The notes under the pieces were generated by a model, which was given only the letters and a program-made list of their open reading frames with translations, was not told the origin of the DNA and did not search any database. A program made the position numbers and the translations under genes. Of a stretch of DNA of 64,000 nucleotides, positions 54,376 to 63,721 are shown in pieces (positions within the stretch are counted from its first letter, which is position 1; the number at the start of each line of letters is the position of its first letter). The stretch is from Candidatus Binatia bacterium (GTDB taxonomy: Bacteria; Desulfobacterota; Binatia; HRBIN30). The stretch is taken from assembly GCA_023150935.1 (NCBI GenBank), contig JAKLJW010000023.1, positions 1 through 64,000 on the forward strand, read 5' to 3'.

Positions 54376-54999
54376 TCAGCGGCGGCGCCGCCCGCGTCCC
54401 GCCGGCGAACTTGGCCGTGAACTCGCCGATTCCGTCCCGTGCATGGTGACCCCAACTCCCACTTGACCGAAACGCGTCTCGATGGTTTCGCCGAACTGTG
54501 CCGTAACCAGGACGACATCGTCGGTGTCCATCGCGATCGCCGTCCCTTGAGGCACCTGGGGGGTCGGTACCGTAAGAATTACGACGAGACTGTTCGGGAT
54601 CAGCAGGTGCGAGAACGTGAAACCGCCGCCGGGCGGATTCGGGATGACTTGCAGGAACATTTGCAGCGGCCGGGGGCTCTGGCGCAGCAGGCGCAGCACC
54701 TCTAGAAACCCGGCGCGGATGCGGGCTTTCACGTTCGGAACGCTCTTGAACCATCCACCGCCGGACTCGTCGAACCAGTGATCTCTTATGTGCAGTTCCT
54801 CAGCCGGTCCGGCGATAAGATTGAGGGCAATGCCGAGTGCGGCGAGATCCTGAGTACCCTTAACCTGATCGCGGATTACCTTGAGGCTCGCCTGCGTCTG
54901 ATTCAGAGATGCCAGGTCCATACGTTGGAGTATGTCGGGCTTCGAGTACTGCTGTGTGAGCGCCAGGGTCGAGTTGGGGTCATCACCGCTGATGGGCAT
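54376..54999 (-). CDS. Hypothetical protein coupled to a kinase/cyclase gene
   Basis: A 207-residue protein of no recognised family. It is helical in the N-terminal 70 residues (KVIRDQVKGTQDLAALGIAL) and beta-rich in the middle and C-terminus, ending in a basic tail (GRGRRRR). No signal peptide. Its start lies inside the end of the kinase/ATPase/cyclase gene (17-bp overlap), so it is probably translated together with it and may be its partner. Confidence 0.65.
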   Translation of the reverse strand: MPISGDDPNSTLALTQQYSKPDILQRMDLASLNQTQASLKVIRDQVKGTQDLAALGIALNLIAGPAEELHIRDHWFDESGGGWFKSVPNVKARIRAGFLEVLRLLRQSPRPLQMFLQVIPNPPGGGFTFSHLLIPNSLVVILTVPTPQVPQGTAIAMDTDDVVLVTAQFGETIETRFGQVGVGVTMHGTESASSRPSSPAGRGRRRR

Positions 55000-57900
55000 T
55001 GCCTTCTCCTTTTCTTGCGCGCCGTGGGCGCGTCAGTGGCGGTTTGCGCTGCACTTCGAACACGTGAACTCGTTCGCGGAACCCGCGCAAAGAAACGCGG
55101 CCACGGTCCACGAAAGAGAACGCCGGATCGGCGATTAGCTGGCGCACGACGTCCGCCACCAGCACCTGACCGGGCCGGGCACGCCCGCAAATCCGGGCCG
55201 CAGCGTTCACGGCCGCGCCAAACAATTCGCTGCCGTCGCGGACGGGTTCGCCCGCACTAATGCCGATGCGAACTAGCAGCCGAGCGTCCGCGTCGGCCGT
55301 GTTCTGTTTGGCCAGTTCGGCCTGGATGTCGAGGGCGCACCTGACGGCGTCGGCGGCGGCCGCAAACGCCGCCATGAAACCGTCGCCGGTGTGTTTGAGC
55401 TGCCGAGCGCCACGTTTCGTCAGGCAGCGCCTGACAATGTGGTCGTGCCGTCGCAGCACGGCCCGGGCACCAACGTCCCCGAGCCGGTCAATAAGCTCGG
55501 TGGACCCTGCCAGATCGGTGAAGAGCACCGCCAGCACCTGCCGCTCCGGAGTCCTGGCGATGCCCGCTGCTGCCTGGCCCGACCACGGTTGCGCCTGATC
55601 CGCAACACCGCTTGCCCGCGCCAAGGGCACAACCTCGATTCCGTGCGCGGCTGCCCAGGCCTCTGCCCGAGCCGTCCACGGGGCGAGACCCCCACGTCCG
55701 AAGGCGCTCAGGGCGAGGTCGATGAGCTGGCGCGTTTCGTCACCGATGCTAGTTTCCGCCCGAGCGGCGGCCAATAGGCGCGCCAGGTCGAAGCAGGCAC
55801 GGCCGAGTTCCGGACCGGCCCCAGCTCTTTGGGCGGCGGCAATTGCGGTGCGAAAGTGGACCTCGGCCCGAGCGCGGTCACCGAGCAGCGCCGCGGCAAC
55901 ACCCAGCACCCGCGAGAGCAGAAACACCCACCCGCTCGAGAACACCACGCCCTGCGTCTCGGCGTACAGCAAGGGTTCGTAGGCGCGCGCCGCGAGTTCG
56001 GACACCCCGGCGAGGTCCGCCACTTCGACTGCGGCACACAGCGGTCCCAGGCTGTTGACGTCCGCCTTTTCCGGCCATGGAATGGCAGTGAGCATGGCGG
56101 TGGCTAACTCGGCCCTTATCGTCGGTGACGGCTCGGTGTACGCACGCACCAGGTCCCCATAGAGCCTAGCCAGGAGCTGGATGCCCCCGCCGGGCTCGTC
56201 GAAGACCTGCCCGGGACTGACCAACGTTTCCAGGGTTCGCCTGGCATCCGCATACGCTCCGCGTCCGACGTGCGCACCGGCAAGTGCCGGCAGGCAGAGC
56301 GGCGCGCCCCACGGGTAGCGCGTGCGACGGATCATGGCGAGTGTCTGCTCCACGCAACGGCCGGCAGTACGCATGTCGCCGCGCGCCACGGCGATACAGG
56401 CCTGGGTTCCGAGACCCAGGGAGTGCTCGGCCCAGTCGTGGGTCTGGAGGACCAGCGACTCCGCTTCGCGGGCCGCCGCCATGGCATCGTCGAGTCTTCC
56501 GGCCCAGAAGAGCACCATCGGAATACGCTGGCGAGGCCAGTTCTGCAGACGCAGGTCCCCGCTACGCAACGTTATCGTGAGCGCCTTCTCGTAGCTGGCC
56601 AGGGCATCGTCGACACGCAACTGTTGCGCTTGAGCGATCGCCCGCACGACGTGGGCGCTGGCCGCCAGCACGGTGTCGCCGGTGCGCGCACTGATGCCCA
56701 CGGCCCGCTCGGCCGTAGATTCCGCCTCGGCCAGACGATTCGTTACCCATTGCACCTGGGCAATAGTGGTCAGTAGTCGGCCGGCCACATCGTCGGCGTC
56801 CGGCCCCAGACGATCCAGCACGTTCTGCAGCGGCTCGATATCGACGTTCGGTCCACGCATCGTGAGCATGGCATCCGCTTGTTCCTTGAGCGCCAGCGCT
56901 AACGAGCGAACCTCACCCACGGCTTCATATGCGGCCACCGCGGCACGATAACGGGCCAGGCAGGGACCCATGTCCCGACCGCGCAGATGGGCAAAGGCGG
57001 CACCGTGCAGCAGGCCGGCAAACATCCGCTGGTCGAACCCGTCGATGCGCTCGGCGGCCGCGATTGCCGCCTCGTAAAACGCGGCCGCCTCGCCCCACGC
57101 GAAGAGCCGCGCCGCCTGCACGCCGGCGCGGCCGGCGTAGAGCGCCACCTTGGCCGGGTCGACTTCGTTCTCGGCGGCCACAAATTGGCGGGCCAGGCGC
57201 AGAAGGTTAACCTCGTCGGCTCGCGTCTCCAGGGCGGTGGCGATCCCAGCGTGGATAAGACGGCGCTCGGTGGCGCTCGGCAAGGTGTAGAAGGCGTGCC
57301 GAACGAGCGGATGCGTGAAGCGGAAATCGTCCCCCTCGGGCTCGACCATACCCTGCGCTATCCCCTCATCGAGGCGGGTCCGCACCGTGCGTGGGGCCAC
57401 GGCGACAACCGTGGCAAGCGTCTTCAGATCGAAAGGGTCACCCAGAAACGCGGCCCGGGCCAGCACCCGGCGACACGGCACCGATAGAGCCTCGGTCCGC
57501 GCCGCGACGACCGACGCGATTTCCCCCGGCAGGTGGAGCGGCGCGGCCGGGTCGGCAAGGGTGAGCAACCCGTCGCGCTCCCGCAGCGCCCCCGCTGCCA
57601 TCCAGCCCTGAACAATCTCCCGCACGAACAAAGGGTTGCCACGCGTAGCGGCCACGAGGCTCTCCACCAGCCGCGGGGCCGGCTCAGCCTGGGTCAGGGC
57701 ACGAATCAGGGCTTGAACATCGATCTCACCCAGCCCGGTGAGGTCGAAACGCTCGCAAAAGGACTCCCTTAGCAAGCGCAACAGAACAGTTGCGAGCTGA
57801 TCGCTCGGCTGCACTGGGCGGAACGCTCCCACTATCAAGAGGCGCACTGCTTCACGGGCGCCATGGTCGGCGGTCGCAAACGCCAAGTGTAAGAACAGGT

Positions 57901-59386
57901 CGAGCGAAGATCGGTCGGCCCAGTGTAGATCGTCAAGGACCAGAAGCAGCGGCTTTTCCTTCGTCGCTTCGATGACGGCGCGCGACACGGTCAGAAAGAG
58001 ACGCAGCCGTTCCCGATCGGCATCGACAACCGCGCCCACCGAGGGCGGGCGTCGACTGGACACCCCTCCCTCCTCCAGAAATCGGCGCAGTATCGAGCGA
58101 TTGCGGCCCTCCACCGCAATAGAATTCGGCGTCGACAGATCGAGCGCCTGACGCACCGCTTCGACGATCGGCAGGTAAGGTGGAGTGCCCTCCTCGAAGC
58201 TGCGGCCCCAGCCGACCGTAACTCCGCGGTTCAAGGCTACCGCGCGTAGCTCGGCAAGGAGGCGGGTCTTGCCGATACCAACCTCGCCGCCAATGAGCGC
58301 CACGCGCGGCGCACCCGCACAGGCGTCTCCGAGACGCGCCTGGATCCAGGCCAGGGGTTCTTCACGTCCGACGAGCAGTGCACCAGGTAGCGCGCGTCCC
58401 GCAACGGCCGCACCATCCGTGCCGGTAACCGGTGGCGGCAGCGGACGCCGGCGTCTGGCCGGCGCAACGTGGCGCCGGCCGGCGGCACGCGCTCCACCAC
58501 TCGCCCCGATGCCGTCGAGCGCGGCCAGGGTCGCCGATGCGGACTGCGGCCGTTGCTCGGGGCTTTCCGCGAGCAGCGACAACACCAGGTCTTCGAGGGC
58601 CGGAGGCACGTCTGCCCGTCGGCGTCGGGGCGGCACCGGAGCGGCGCGCACCAACTGCAAGAGCCGATCGCGGAGCTCCGCGCCGGCGAACGGCGGGCGT
58701 CCCGTAAGCATCTCGTAAAGTACGCAGCCCAGCGCGTAGAGGTCGCTACGCGCATCCCCGAGCCTCCCGTCGAGCACTTCGGGAGCCATGTACGGCGGCG
58801 TACCAACGAGCATCTCGTCTTCAGTCAGGCGGCCACGGCGCGAGTCCAGCGACAGACCGAAGTCGCCCAGATGAGCCGTTCCTCGATCGTCCAGAAAGAC
58901 GTTCGCCGGCTTGACGTCCCGGTGCGTAACGCCGGCGTCGTGGGCGTGCTGCAAGCCAGCACACACATCGCGGGCAATGACAACCACGCGCGCGATCGGC
59001 AACCCGGCGGCACCCTCGCGGGCAAGCTCCTCGGCCAGCGTCCCCCCGCGCATGAAGCGGCTTACCAGGTACAGAACGTCCGGATGCTCGATCGTGTCAA
59101 AGATCGGAACGAGGTGCGGGCGCTCTCCAACCTTGGCCATCAACTTCGCTTCGCGCCGAACACCCGCCCGGTCGGCCTCGCTCATCGCAGCCAGCGGCAA
59201 CACGGCGATGGCCACCTCTCGTTCCAGCATGGCGTCGTGTGCCCGATAGACACGCTTCTGACTCCCCTCGCCAAGACACTCCCGGATCTGGAAGCGCTGC
59301 GGCAGGCCCGGGAAGCCCGCACGCTCTCCGGCCGCCGCCGGCACGCTCGACGCCGGGCGCTCACCTGTCGATTGGCCGCTGTTCAT
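54983..59386 (-). CDS. Protein-kinase-like / AAA ATPase / helical repeat / adenylate-cyclase fusion
   Basis: A 1467-residue cytosolic signalling protein. Residues 31-290 are a Ser/Thr-kinase fold: GEGSQKRVY glycine loop, HRD with Asp157, Asn162 and DFG with Asp175. The beta3 lysine of VAIK is absent: the sequence reads VAIA (Ala61). Residues about 335-600 are a predicted ATPase with Walker A GGEVGIGKT (366-374) and LLVLDDLHWAD. A long helical (TPR-like) region follows (about 650-1200). The C-terminal ~190 residues are a class III cyclase (LFTDLAGSTEL, HTGDGFMAAF). Start at ATG 59386; a TTG at 59419 is possible. Confidence 0.85.
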   Translation of the reverse strand: MNSGQSTGERPASSVPAAAGERAGFPGLPQRFQIRECLGEGSQKRVYRAHDAMLEREVAIAVLPLAAMSEADRAGVRREAKLMAKVGERPHLVPIFDTIEHPDVLYLVSRFMRGGTLAEELAREGAAGLPIARVVVIARDVCAGLQHAHDAGVTHRDVKPANVFLDDRGTAHLGDFGLSLDSRRGRLTEDEMLVGTPPYMAPEVLDGRLGDARSDLYALGCVLYEMLTGRPPFAGAELRDRLLQLVRAAPVPPRRRRADVPPALEDLVLSLLAESPEQRPQSASATLAALDGIGASGGARAAGRRHVAPARRRRPLPPPVTGTDGAAVAGRALPGALLVGREEPLAWIQARLGDACAGAPRVALIGGEVGIGKTRLLAELRAVALNRGVTVGWGRSFEEGTPPYLPIVEAVRQALDLSTPNSIAVEGRNRSILRRFLEEGGVSSRRPPSVGAVVDADRERLRLFLTVSRAVIEATKEKPLLLVLDDLHWADRSSLDLFLHLAFATADHGAREAVRLLIVGAFRPVQPSDQLATVLLRLLRESFCERFDLTGLGEIDVQALIRALTQAEPAPRLVESLVAATRGNPLFVREIVQGWMAAGALRERDGLLTLADPAAPLHLPGEIASVVAARTEALSVPCRRVLARAAFLGDPFDLKTLATVVAVAPRTVRTRLDEGIAQGMVEPEGDDFRFTHPLVRHAFYTLPSATERRLIHAGIATALETRADEVNLLRLARQFVAAENEVDPAKVALYAGRAGVQAARLFAWGEAAAFYEAAIAAAERIDGFDQRMFAGLLHGAAFAHLRGRDMGPCLARYRAAVAAYEAVGEVRSLALALKEQADAMLTMRGPNVDIEPLQNVLDRLGPDADDVAGRLLTTIAQVQWVTNRLAEAESTAERAVGISARTGDTVLAASAHVVRAIAQAQQLRVDDALASYEKALTITLRSGDLRLQNWPRQRIPMVLFWAGRLDDAMAAAREAESLVLQTHDWAEHSLGLGTQACIAVARGDMRTAGRCVEQTLAMIRRTRYPWGAPLCLPALAGAHVGRGAYADARRTLETLVSPGQVFDEPGGGIQLLARLYGDLVRAYTEPSPTIRAELATAMLTAIPWPEKADVNSLGPLCAAVEVADLAGVSELAARAYEPLLYAETQGVVFSSGWVFLLSRVLGVAAALLGDRARAEVHFRTAIAAAQRAGAGPELGRACFDLARLLAAARAETSIGDETRQLIDLALSAFGRGGLAPWTARAEAWAAAHGIEVVPLARASGVADQAQPWSGQAAAGIARTPERQVLAVLFTDLAGSTELIDRLGDVGARAVLRRHDHIVRRCLTKRGARQLKHTGDGFMAAFAAAADAVRCALDIQAELAKQNTADADARLLVRIGISAGEPVRDGSELFGAAVNAAARICGRARPGQVLVADVVRQLIADPAFSFVDRGRVSLRGFRERVHVFEVQRKPPLTRPRRARKGEGNAHQR

Positions 59387-59666
59387 GCAAGCCCCAACGC
59401 CACCCGCCAACCTTGACAACCAGGCCCTCTGCCCACGTCCCCATGACTCGACTTCGTGTGACCTGACTGCGTCGTGTACTGTGGCGCCCCGCGGGCGTCA
59501 ATCGATTCGATGTACCCAGTCGGTCTCCACACCCGTTCGATACCCAACCGGCTGCCTACCGAACCAGCCAGACCGCCGCAGTTGCGGCCCGGCATCGGCA
59601 CCCGCGGTGTCTCCGCGCCGCGCTGAACACGGGGCAGCGTCGGGCTCGGCGGACCCGCCTGTCCCT

Positions 59667-60740
59667 TCACGGGGTCGGAGCGCGAGATGGATTCACGAAG
59701 GGCAACGGCACAACGTGCGCCGCTCGGCCATCCGGAGTTGAAATCGCCACCGTGGCGCCCGGTTCCCAGTACCCGCGGCGGACATAACCGAGGGCGATCA
59801 CGGCTTTGCATGCCGGAGACCACGCCGCACTGGTGATTCTCCCCACGTCCTTGCCGGCATCAACCAGATCGATCGGCACCGCGGGGACCGCTTCGCCCTC
59901 GCACACGAGCCCCACAAGCTTCCGCTGCACCTGCCCGCGCGACGCGACGCGCTCAACCACTTCCTGCCCGAGATAGCACCCCTTGCGATAACTGATGGCG
60001 CTCTCAATGCCGACCTCACTGATCAGCGTTTCGTCGTCCATGTCGCGACCGTACCAGGGGATACCGGCTTCCAGTCTCAGGATATCGAGGGCCTCCATGC
60101 CGACCGGCTCTGCCCCGGCGGCGCGTCCGCGCTCCCAAAGCGCCGCGGCGGCCGACGGCGACCCGTAAAACACGTACCCGGGTGCACCGCCGTGGCTCAT
60201 TGCCGCGATGCGAAACGTAACGCCGTCGATATCAGCCGGCAGATGCGCGAACGCCGTCGTTGGAACCGGCCCACCGATCAGCGCGGAGACGACAGCGGTC
60301 GCTTCCGGGCCCTCAAAGGCGATCAGAGGTGCAGTCGCCTCGGCCGGCAGCAGTTCGACGTCGTCCGCGATGATGTACCGATCCAGCGTCTCGCGCACGA
60401 CATCTACCCGCGCGGCCGGCAGGTCCAACCACATCTCCTCCGCCAGCCTCAGCGCAAATAGATCGGCCACAATGCGACCCTGAATGGTCAGCAGGGCGGC
60501 ATACACACCCTGCCCGGCATTGAGATGAACGACGTCGTTAGTGAGCATCCCCTGAAGGAAGGTCTCATGATCGCCGCCGGCCACCCGCAGGAGACCACGA
60601 AAGCGCGCGTCAAGCAGGCCGCAGCCCTGCCGCACTGCCGCCCACTCCTGGGTTAGCCCGGCGAAGCGGATCGGCAACGCCACACCCGCGACGAAAGAAC
60701 CGCCGGCGGCCGCTTCGACCGTCTCCAACGCGTCTGGCAT
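59667..60740 (-). CDS. ygfZ: Folate-binding protein YgfZ-like (GcvT-related)
   Basis: A 357-residue protein with the YgfZ signature KGCYLGQEVVER near residue 254 (the Cys is the functional residue) and GcvT-like features such as LRLEAGIPWYGRDMDDETLI. YgfZ binds folate and supports Fe-S cluster enzymes. Several in-frame Met choices exist; ATG 60740 gives MPDALETVEAA and the usual length. It is divergent from the Cys-rich gene with the tandem operators between. Confidence 0.85.
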   Translation of the reverse strand: MPDALETVEAAAGGSFVAGVALPIRFAGLTQEWAAVRQGCGLLDARFRGLLRVAGGDHETFLQGMLTNDVVHLNAGQGVYAALLTIQGRIVADLFALRLAEEMWLDLPAARVDVVRETLDRYIIADDVELLPAEATAPLIAFEGPEATAVVSALIGGPVPTTAFAHLPADIDGVTFRIAAMSHGGAPGYVFYGSPSAAAALWERGRAAGAEPVGMEALDILRLEAGIPWYGRDMDDETLISEVGIESAISYRKGCYLGQEVVERVASRGQVQRKLVGLVCEGEAVPAVPIDLVDAGKDVGRITSAAWSPACKAVIALGYVRRGYWEPGATVAISTPDGRAAHVVPLPFVNPSRAPTP

Positions 60741-60846
60741 TATCTCAGCCCCACCCGGCATCGGACTAACAGAATCCCGGCAGGCACGGAAGCGCGCCGA
60801 TAGGCGCACCGAAGCACCACGAACTTTTTCCTTGTGCGTAAATAAA

Positions 60847-60886
60847 AATGGGAGTATTACCCATGACTATGGGATGTTTTCCCATA
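60847..60886. promoter_or_regulatory. Tandem palindromic operators ATGGG-N7-CCCAT
   Basis: Site 1 is ATGGG-N7-CCCAT at 60848-60864; site 2 is TATGGGA-N5-TCCCATA at 60868-60886. Their centres are 21 bp apart, close to two helical turns, so two dimers would bind on the same face. The segment is A/T-rich in a GC-rich genome. It lies between ygfZ (start 60740) and the Cys-rich gene (start 61026), in a 285-bp gap without genes. Confidence 0.6.
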
Positions 60887-61025
60887 AACATGCGTGGCCC
60901 GCCTTAGACCCTGATCGCTGCGGCCGGGTCCCTGCGAACGAGGAGAGCGGCCCTCGTGTCAAACGGTCCGAAACCTGTCACTACTCATCAAGCCAGAGAA
61001 AGCTAAGACCGAGGAGAAGGTAACG

Positions 61026-61754
61026 ATGATCTCGAAACGACTTATGGGACTGACCCTTGGATTGGGTCTCGTACTTGCGAGCGCCGCCGTGGCCCACGGA
61101 CGCGGACCGTCGGGTCCGGGGATTCCGCCTAACCCGGGGCCGCGACCGAGTCCTGGACCGGTCAAGGATCGTTTGTGTGTCCATCTCTGCAAGGACGACG
61201 CGCGGGCCTGCACGGCATCGGCCCACGCCGAAAGGCGCGCTTGCCGTGCCGAAAACTGCGGCGAGGCCATCGATGCGGCTCATGCCGCCTGCTCGGCTGA
61301 CCCGGCGTCGCCCGAGTGCGCCGACGCCCGCACGCAAGCCCGCGAGTGCCTGCACACCTGCAATGCCGCCTTCCGCGCCGCCATGGAGGAATGCGGCACC
61401 GATCTGAGGGAGTGTATCGCGATCTGCCCGGATGCCGGCGCAACGCCACCCAAGGACCCGACCTGCATCGCCACGTGCCGCGAGGACCTGCGGGCATGCT
61501 TGACAACCGTCCGTGCGAACGCGCAAACCTGCCGCGAGGGGTGCAGCGATCTCGTCGAGGCCGCGAAGACCGCCTGCGAGGCCGATCGCCATTCGGCGGC
61601 CTGCAGGGATGCTCGCGCCGCCGCGAGCGCTTGCTTGCAACCATGCCTGGAAACCCAGCGCTCCGAACACGCCGCCTGCGACCGCGCGGCCGGCGCATGC
61701 GCGGAGGCGTGTCCTGACGCGCCGGTACCCACACCAACGGCAGCGGCTGAGTAA
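61026..61754 (+). CDS. Secreted 24-cysteine protein with two copies of a 12-Cys domain
   Basis: A 242-residue protein with a signal peptide (GLTLGLGLVLASAAVAHG), a Pro/Gly-rich linker and then two repeats of about 83 residues. Each repeat has 12 cysteines. Gaps between cysteines in copy 1 are 3,6,10,4,10,8,9,3,10,6,3 and in copy 2 are 3,6,10,3,10,8,9,3,10,6,3. The 3 and 10 spacings suggest disulfide-stapled helical hairpins. The mature protein ends in TPTAAAE. No family was recognised. It is likely extracytoplasmic and rigid. Confidence 0.85.
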   Translation: MISKRLMGLTLGLGLVLASAAVAHGRGPSGPGIPPNPGPRPSPGPVKDRLCVHLCKDDARACTASAHAERRACRAENCGEAIDAAHAACSADPASPECADARTQARECLHTCNAAFRAAMEECGTDLRECIAICPDAGATPPKDPTCIATCREDLRACLTTVRANAQTCREGCSDLVEAAKTACEADRHSAACRDARAAASACLQPCLETQRSEHAACDRAAGACAEACPDAPVPTPTAAAE

Positions 61755-61886: not shown

Positions 61887-62780
61887 GTGACCCTGCCGCC
61901 AGTACGCGGTCCTCTCAAGGCCAAGTTCGTCGCCGCCATCAGGCGCCTGCTGCACCCTGTGGTTCGGCAACTCGTCACCTACGGGGTGAGCTACCCGGCG
62001 CTCAGCCGCCTTCTCAAGCAGATCTACGTGGAGGTTGCGGAGCAGGACTTCGCTCTGCCGTTCAAGCGCCTCACGGACAGTCGGGTTTCACTGCTCACCG
62101 GAATCAACCGCAAAGAGATCGTCCAACTCCGGCGCCGTCCCTCGCGGTCCACGGCCGTAGTCGAAGTCGAGGACACGCTCGCTACCCATGTGCTCGGCCG
62201 TTGGATGGCGAGCCCGCCCTACGCCAGCCGTGACGGCGTTCCCAGGCGTTTGCCATATGACGTGTCCGACTCCGCCACGCCGAGCTTTGCCAGACTGGTA
62301 CGCGAAGTCGGGGTCGACATACCTGTCCGGTCGGTACTCGACGAGTTGCTACGTCAGGGTGCCGTCGAATTGCTGCCGAACGGCGACGTAGCGGTGGTTA
62401 GAGAAGCGAACATCCCGCAGGACGATATCGAGGCAAAGCTCACGTTACTTGGTGCAGATCCGGGGGAGCTGTTCACCACCATCGTGCACAACATCGAACA
62501 CCCGGAGGCACCCCTCCTGCAGCGCAAGGTCGTCTACGACAACATCGGCGCCGATGCTCTCGTCCAACTTCGCGAGGAGGCCCGCCGCCTTGGCGAGGAG
62601 TTCATTCGCCGCGCCAATGCCCTGTTGGCCACCCAGGATCGCGACCGCAATCGGGATGCACCCGGCGGCCGGCGCACCCGCGTGGTGCTCGGCACCCACT
62701 ACTTTGAGGAACCGTACGAACCGTCACCACCGGCCCCGGTGGACTCGCCGCTGCCCGGTCGTATCCGGAGGTCTCGATGA
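61887..62780 (+). CDS. DUF6502-family protein
   Basis: A 297-residue protein with the family pattern LLHPVVRQLVTYGVSYPALSRLLKQIYVEVAE, split as VTYGVSYPALS and KQIYVEVAEQDF, then SRVSLLTGINRKEIVQLRR, a helix-turn-helix-like segment, and ATHVLGRWMASPPY. The second half (about 180-270) is helical and acidic. The molecular function is unknown; a DNA-binding or regulatory role is inferred. The GTG at 61887 is used. It is coupled to the next gene by ATGA. Confidence 0.75.
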   Translation: MTLPPVRGPLKAKFVAAIRRLLHPVVRQLVTYGVSYPALSRLLKQIYVEVAEQDFALPFKRLTDSRVSLLTGINRKEIVQLRRRPSRSTAVVEVEDTLATHVLGRWMASPPYASRDGVPRRLPYDVSDSATPSFARLVREVGVDIPVRSVLDELLRQGAVELLPNGDVAVVREANIPQDDIEAKLTLLGADPGELFTTIVHNIEHPEAPLLQRKVVYDNIGADALVQLREEARRLGEEFIRRANALLATQDRDRNRDAPGGRRTRVVLGTHYFEEPYEPSPPAPVDSPLPGRIRRSR

Positions 62781-63721
62781 AACGGCCGCGCAGTCTCTTT
62801 CTCCTGGCCCTCTTGCTCCTGGGCGGGTGCGCAGCCGACGGCGGCCCGGTCGGCACCGGCATCGCCGCGATCAGCGGCAACGTCGTGGCCGTGGACACTG
62901 CCACCGATGGCGCCACCGCGGAAAGTGGCCTCGCCACCGCACTCCCCTTCCCGGTCACGGTCAGTATAGACGAGGCCCCGGGGATCGCCGACACCACCGA
63001 CGCCGAGGGCAACTTCGAGTTACGTGGCGAGTTCTCGGGCGCGCTCACATTGCGCTTCCGGGGCGACGGTATCGATGCAACGACTCCCATAGACATTCCG
63101 GCGGGCTCCGTGCTCGTCCTCGAAGACGTCACCCTGCGCCGCCAGTCGGTCGAGCCGGCCAACGTGCGCCAGCTCGAGTTCCTCGGCCGCATCGTGATGG
63201 TGGACTGCGTCGACGACGCCAACGGAGTACTGCTCGTCGACGACCGGGCCCCAGGACGCAATCAATTCCTCGTGCGTATCTCGGCTGACACCGAAATCAC
63301 GCGCCGCGGAGGCCGTCCCCTCGCCTGCACCGCGCTACGGGTCGGCGACGAAGTCGGCATCCAGGGCGAGGTCCGTCTCCGCACCGACCGCACCATCGAC
63401 GCCCTCGCCATCGTTGTGGCACCGAAGAACCCGCCGCCGGACCCGGGCCCGGTGCAACCGGTGCGGTTTACGGGCACGGTTGTAGCCGCGGACTGCACCG
63501 CCGAGGTGCTCCTGCTCGCATCCGTAAACGGCGGCACCCGCGTTCGACTGGTGCCAACGACACGTTACTTCACCCCCGACGGGCACGGTGGCCGACGCCC
63601 GATCGCCTGCACGGACCTCGCGCCGCGGGGTCACGTCGAGGGCAACGGCACGGTGCGGCTGAACAACCCGGGAGCGATCGTCGCCGAGACCATCGTGTTC
63701 CGCCCGGCGACCCGCGGTTGA
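62777..63721 (+). CDS. Lipoprotein with two DUF5666-like domains
   Basis: A 314-residue lipoprotein with lipobox LGGC (residues 15-18). It carries an N-terminal beta domain with IADTTDAEGNFELRGEFSG (about 72-90), then two DUF5666-like OB-type domains: one at about 133-218 (FLGRIVMVD, LRVGDEVGIQGEVRL) and one at about 230-312 (FTGTVVAAD, ACTDLAPRGHVEGNG). It is likely exported to the outer membrane. The ATG overlaps the DUF6502 stop; this pair recurs in other genomes in my memory. Confidence 0.78.
   Translation: MKRPRSLFLLALLLLGGCAADGGPVGTGIAAISGNVVAVDTATDGATAESGLATALPFPVTVSIDEAPGIADTTDAEGNFELRGEFSGALTLRFRGDGIDATTPIDIPAGSVLVLEDVTLRRQSVEPANVRQLEFLGRIVMVDCVDDANGVLLVDDRAPGRNQFLVRISADTEITRRGGRPLACTALRVGDEVGIQGEVRLRTDRTIDALAIVVAPKNPPPDPGPVQPVRFTGTVVAADCTAEVLLLASVNGGTRVRLVPTTRYFTPDGHGGRRPIACTDLAPRGHVEGNGTVRLNNPGAIVAETIVFRPATRG

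Follow-up and report, generated by a model that had tools for sequence, protein, structure and literature searches.

An exported protein with two 12-cysteine domains, predicted to fold as disulfide-laddered helical hairpins, in a Binatota-like bacterium

Plant α-hairpinins consist of two antiparallel helices whose CX3C motifs are joined by nested disulfides, Cys1-Cys4 and Cys2-Cys3, and κ-hefutoxins are built likewise (PMC7191063). The small Tim proteins of the mitochondrial intermembrane space, which carry twin CX3C motifs, also form a helix-loop-helix with C1-C4 and C2-C3 disulfides (PMC3759932). In the N-terminal hairpin of CP12, a tip motif CxxDPxSxxC lies between two helices and its cysteine pair is joined by a disulfide (PMC9406205). 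Csp1 and Csp3 are cysteine-rich helical proteins of another kind, four-helix bundles whose thiols bind Cu(I), with Csp1 exported by the Tat route (PMC7558416).

We analysed a 64,000-nucleotide stretch of DNA (the window) from a Candidatus Binatia bacterium of the HRBIN30 lineage; HRBin30 is an order of Binatota (PMC8262859). The features discussed here are the following, with helices and linker confidence taken from AlphaFold models.

60848–60864, no strand: palindrome ATGGGAGTATTACCCAT, first putative operator copy, of the TGGGA-N5-TCCCA type with one mismatch
60869–60885, no strand: palindrome ATGGGATGTTTTCCCAT, second putative operator copy, 21 bp from the first
61011–61016, + strand: ribosome-binding site GAGGAG, read in the sequence
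61026–61754, + strand: gene of the exported, predicted two-hairpin 24-cysteine protein (242 aa, ATG start)
61026–61097, + strand: Sec-type signal peptide, about residues 1–24, MISKRLMGLTLGLGLVLASAAVAH, read in the sequence; homologues have similar N-termini
61098–61169, + strand: Pro/Gly-rich low-confidence linker (pLDDT <60 up to about residue 40)
61176–61427, + strand: predicted hairpin domain 1, cysteines 51–134, helices 49–77, 79–91 and 96–132
61464–61712, + strand: predicted hairpin domain 2, cysteines 147–229, helices 145–172, 174–186 and 191–227
61887–62780, + strand: DUF6502 (PF20112) protein, probable DNA-binding regulator, Pfam E 2.9e-57
62777–63721, + strand: lipoprotein with an LLLLGGC lipobox and CarboxypepD_reg-like and DUF5666-like parts; its start overlaps the DUF6502 stop (ATGA)

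The open reading frame 61026–61754 contains exactly 24 cysteines in 242 residues, and the 12-cysteine duplication reported in a preliminary description of this DNA was exact on recount. The cysteine gaps are 3,6,10,4,10,8,9,3,10,6,3 in repeat 1 and 3,6,10,3,10,8,9,3,10,6,3 in repeat 2, with 12 residues between the repeats; as that description had it, ten of the eleven gaps are equal, and only the fourth differs (4 versus 3). When the repeats were aligned with the cysteines fixed, the score was 155, as against 85 ± 16 in 2000 shuffles of the other residues, none of which scored as high. The non-cysteine residues are thus related beyond chance, indicating a true duplication. Together with the same 12-cysteine spacing in dozens of divergent homologues from related genomes, this test shows that the repeat spacing is not a chance pattern. 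Within the window, the cysteine pattern of helix 1 occurs only at the two repeats. The protein had also been described as exported, and we read a Sec-type signal peptide at residues 1–24. Its N-terminus, MISKRLMGLTL, has no twin arginine and so differs from the Tat signal of the Csp1 type.

We found no family match for the protein above the curated cut-offs of Pfam-A or NCBIfam, nor any in PHROGs or among PDB sequences. This agrees with the earlier statement that the family is not a recognised one, and the named-family match proposed as its refuting test was not found. Vanabin-2 (PF11437), a small cysteine-rich protein, was matched by one of 30 family members, without significance (E = 0.83). 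In a search with the profile of the family, the CP12 tip motif lined up with C6-C7, in a match confined to 33 residues at the tip and again without significance (E = 0.07). CP12 has a single rung and is a conditionally disordered Calvin-cycle switch, unlike the 12-cysteine domain, and the likeness at the tip is probably convergent. In structure searches, the nearest solved arrangements to the domain model are long helical hairpins. The Foldseek/VIA matches (Rad50, MacA, the LSD1 tower, ROP and colicin receptor domains) were set aside as generic long hairpins and no family was assigned from them: no E value was below 0.9, and Z scores of up to 9.3 lie in the range expected of any helical hairpin. 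The 24-cysteine hairpin family is real, has no name and belongs to no named family.

The gap string, 3-6-10-(3/4)-[10-8-9]-3-10-6-3, is nearly identical when read backwards, a palindromic symmetry absent from the preliminary description. Across 83 full domains, the four N-terminal gaps differ from the reversed four C-terminal gaps by a mean L1 difference of 0.67; without the reversal the difference is 8.5. In each of the five arm rungs the cysteine indices add up to 92, and in the tip rung to 93, as they would in an in-phase hairpin. On an 11-residue helical repeat, the ten arm cysteines fall at two positions, one stripe per helix. Such palindromic spacing predicts an antiparallel helical hairpin with the rungs C1-C12, C2-C11, C3-C10, C4-C9 and C5-C8 and a tip rung C6-C7. 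For domain 2, AlphaFold also predicts a hairpin (pLDDT 97.6; domain helices 3–29, 32–44 and 49–85). In the model of the full protein both hairpins are confident, and their mutual placement is uncertain (pTM 0.56). These models, made from the window and fetched-locus sequences with small alignments (10 and 5 rows), do not represent the redox state; the ends that they give the helices, and a rung register that stays constant, are consistent with cysteines lying adjacent across the helices, as a ladder requires. The mature protein has only about 10% large hydrophobic residues, with 11% cysteine and 23% alanine, so it would need disulfides for a core. The antiparallel hairpin fold is thus a model-based prediction, and a six-rung ladder per hairpin is well supported by the sequence pattern and the models. 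We infer the disulfides themselves from the spacing symmetry and from paired cysteine losses.

The losses were surveyed in 130 distinct fitted domain copies, clustered at 55% identity. Three-helix-like paralogues, in which the automatic register spanned two neighbouring domains, and the weak or fragmentary L019, L318 and L346 were not counted as evidence. All twelve cysteines are kept in 82 of the 130 copies. C6 and C7 are missing, with the tip loop shortened to 7–12 residues, in 21 copies from 13 clusters. C3 and C10 are jointly missing in four copies (three clusters) of one kind of N-terminal domain, perhaps through one event. Joint absence of C4 and C9 was found in L305 and L311 by the automatic fit and in further copies by profile register (3-6-14-10-13-10-14-6-3), and that of C5 and C8 in L321, a paralogue encoded by the same genome as the window protein. 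For the three-helix-like paralogues L305, L306, L314, L316 and L338 the automatic fit leaves the register ambiguous. An apparent C5+C8 loss in L345 in the automatic table was an artefact of arm deletions and was not counted. In this homologue from outside the class (G592) the two arms are shortened at the corresponding interval, by 4 and 5 residues, and insertions of about 4 residues flank another of its tips on both sides. Some copies do not follow the pairing: C4 alone is lost in repeat 2 of L015 and C1 alone in L319, and arm lengths change without compensation in L012, L015 and L028 (3-4-10) and in L331 (3-6-8). The clean double losses in about 130 copies hit predicted rung partners, which supports the ladder pairing at the level of sequence. 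With random loss of two positions out of ten, a predicted rung would be hit with a chance of 1/9, and three independent cases would have a chance of about 0.0014, figures that serve only as a guide as the copies are related.

The same survey bears on a periplasmic store or buffer, in which reduced cysteines would line a helical bundle and bind Cu(I) or Zn(II), as in Csp1/Csp3. An exported helical protein with 24 cysteines, many in CX3C pairs, would suit this role; Csp proteins are themselves cysteine-lined helical bundles, of which Csp1 is exported (PMC7558416), and two hairpins could in principle pack as a four-helix bundle, given their uncertain placement. However, the losses track the cross-helix rungs, and the 130 fitted copies show no clear joint loss of CX3C partners (C1-C2, C4-C5, C8-C9, C11-C12), which counts against CX3C metal sites. 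A possible four-cysteine site can lose one rung while its neighbour stays (C4 and C9 gone with C5 and C8 kept, and the reverse in L321), which counts against four-cysteine zinc sites. Moreover, the family has no conserved His or Met, and the 24-cysteine protein lacks a Tat signal and any Pfam match. We consider metal storage unlikely. The preliminary description had left the choice between disulfides and metal binding; spacing symmetry and paired losses favour cross-helix disulfides and speak against metal sites. Its proposal of an undescribed disulfide-stapled helical domain is borne out by the lack of a family match, the confident hairpin model, the spacing symmetry and the paired losses, as far as models and sequence comparison go.

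Several family members depart from the simple two-domain form. L305, L306, L314, L316, L338, L321, L386 and L388 have a longer gap chain, 10-3-10-6-3-6-10-3-10-13-10-3-10-6-3 and variants, and look like a half domain fused ahead of a full domain; L321 shows that this form also occurs in the window's genome. L005 and L006 carry one extra cysteine near the tip of each repeat, in differing places, possibly for an inter-hairpin disulfide. Five or six tandem hairpin domains are found in L024, L301 and L053, the first being a short hairpin without C3 and C10. Most members have two copies, and L016, L022 and L343 have one.

A protein search found homologues in 26 of 98 genomes, and a profile built from 30 domains found the domain in 43 of the 148 genomes of the class. 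With a few copies outside the class, about 130 copies were collected. Outside the class the domain is rare: one same-phylum genome had it in a draw of 395, and in the phylum of a Kofleriaceae MAG 6 of 377 genomes gave a match, three of them (L343, L344 and L345) convincing by spacing. Among the matches listed in a DNA scan of the whole collection for a 10-cysteine pattern, four are genuine, all in Binatota-like genomes already found by the search for relatives. The remaining listed matches were discarded, being mostly trinucleotide repeats (TGY tracts) and other cysteine-dense frames. A search for related loci found no relative in the viral or the plasmid collection. The family thus occurs mainly in one uncultured, Binatota-like bacterial group. 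Our literature search found no paper joining Binatota with cysteine-rich proteins.

Among the described systems, the α-hairpinins and the small Tims share the hairpin principle of the 12-cysteine domain. Like the α-hairpinins, the domain has an antiparallel helix-loop-helix, as modelled with a pLDDT of 97.6. The CX3C-Xn-CX3C arrangement is present twice, in the nested pairs C4-C5 with C8-C9 and C1-C2 with C11-C12, although C4-C5 of repeat 1 in the window is CX4C. α-Hairpinins are short plant peptides with two disulfides only, whereas the bacterial domain has 12 cysteines in about 83 residues, with five predicted nested rungs and a tip rung, and is repeated. Small Tims likewise have only two rungs and are subunits of chaperone complexes, and we found no sequence match between them and the domain. 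The domain works like a stapled hairpin and differs in rung number, size, repetition and operon.

We also investigated the genetic loci of the family. The order cysteine protein, DUF6502, lipoprotein is found at 10 loci in 9 genomes (L001, L002, L004, L011, L012, L014, L015, L027, L028 and L029). The window's genome has a single DUF6502 gene, so its position beside the cysteine gene is not an effect of abundance. Single-domain or short cysteine genes adjoin divergent or neighbouring DUF6502 genes at L018, L056, L333 and L328, and many family members have no DUF6502 nearby. Two relatives of the lipoprotein match DUF5666. Other neighbours include a GcvT/YgfZ-like folate-binding protein (PF01571, PF08669) encoded divergently from the cysteine gene in the window (59667–60809, − strand). 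Further away, a 1478-aa protein (54983–59419, − strand) reads as a Ser/Thr kinase with an ATPase and a C-terminal class III nucleotide cyclase. At L016 (G050:C15), on the minus strand, a neighbouring protein has repeated CGNG...ECDDGN cysteine motifs.

The two palindromes lie about 180 and 160 bases ahead of the cysteine gene. The exact form ATGGG-N7-CCCAT has six sites in the genome, and only the two at 60848–60885 have an AT-rich centre. TGGGA-N5-TCCCA was found upstream of the cysteine gene in 8 of 9 assessable cassette loci; L002 has a palindrome with mismatches, L014 has none and L012 is cut by the contig end. The palindrome is doubled at 21 bp in L011 and L029 as well. It also precedes L005 and L006 as well as the solitary DUF6502 genes L380 and L381, and in L307 and L333 it lies in the gap between a DUF6502 gene and a divergently transcribed cysteine gene. 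In total, 44 palindromes lie in 58.9 kb of upstream sequence versus 10 in 620 kb elsewhere, overlapping loci being counted repeatedly on both sides. In G003, G005 and G006, members of the order without DUF6502, such palindromes are found only away from these genes. A perfect TGGGA-N5-TCCCA in L395 (G014:C412, 1285–1301) stands ahead of a long open reading frame, away from DUF6502 and cysteine genes, and may be a further regulon member or chance. A sigma-70 promoter scan found none. Our literature search found no paper on DUF6502 either; judged from its sequence, with a putative helix-turn-helix, it is likely to be a regulator. The simplest reading of the sites is that DUF6502 binds TGGGA-N5-TCCCA and regulates its own operon.

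Two further roles were weighed. The ladder or the lipoprotein might sense envelope redox state or oxidative folding load and signal to DUF6502; in favour of this, the cassette combines an operator-like palindrome with a probable regulator in the cytoplasm. But we identified nothing that spans the membrane to connect the envelope with DUF6502, and a ladder of six buried rungs would serve poorly as a redox switch, making a sensor quite improbable. The protein might instead be a secreted antimicrobial or inhibitor acting like enlarged α-hairpinins. It is secreted, and its twin-CX3C hairpin follows the principle of these peptides and of κ-hefutoxins (PMC7191063). Its size, its alanine-rich arms and a domain number of one to six per protein fit this poorly. 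It also shares an operon with a probable regulator and a lipoprotein, no immunity-like gene was recognised, and the family centres on one class and was not found in the plasmid collection. We regard such an activity as very improbable.

We think it likely that the 24-cysteine protein is a Sec-exported protein with two laddered hairpins, encoded in a DUF6502-controlled operon. Once outside the cytoplasm, it would fold as a pair of antiparallel helical hairpins, with six disulfides (C1-C12, C2-C11, C3-C10, C4-C9, C5-C8 and the tip C6-C7) closing each around a core mainly of cystine and alanine. The genome contains two VKOR-DSBA fusion frames (G000:C4:174584-175642 and G000:C1:463042-464178), so exported proteins can be oxidised; no DsbB was found in it. 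These fusion enzymes would most likely form the disulfides. The cysteine gene would be the first of a three-gene operon, followed by DUF6502 and the lipoprotein, with DUF6502 most likely exerting control by binding TGGGA-N5-TCCCA. The product may be a rigid, protease- and stress-resistant envelope part, a spacer or binding module, probably acting with the lipoprotein. This role as a highly stable scaffold or binding module partnered with the lipoprotein is our tentative suggestion.

On balance, we lean slightly towards the broader view that this is an unnamed domain, a hairpin held by a complete six-rung cross-helix ladder with little hydrophobic core and present in 1–6 copies per exported protein, and that part of the family is under DUF6502 as a new regulator family recognising TGGGA-N5-TCCCA. 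The two-rung stapled hairpin would then be extended to a six-rung ladder, a compact bacterial scaffold that is probably very stable and whose pairing code can be tested. For DUF6502, a role and a DNA target would become open to testing for the first time, in an uncultured bacterial group that is widespread.
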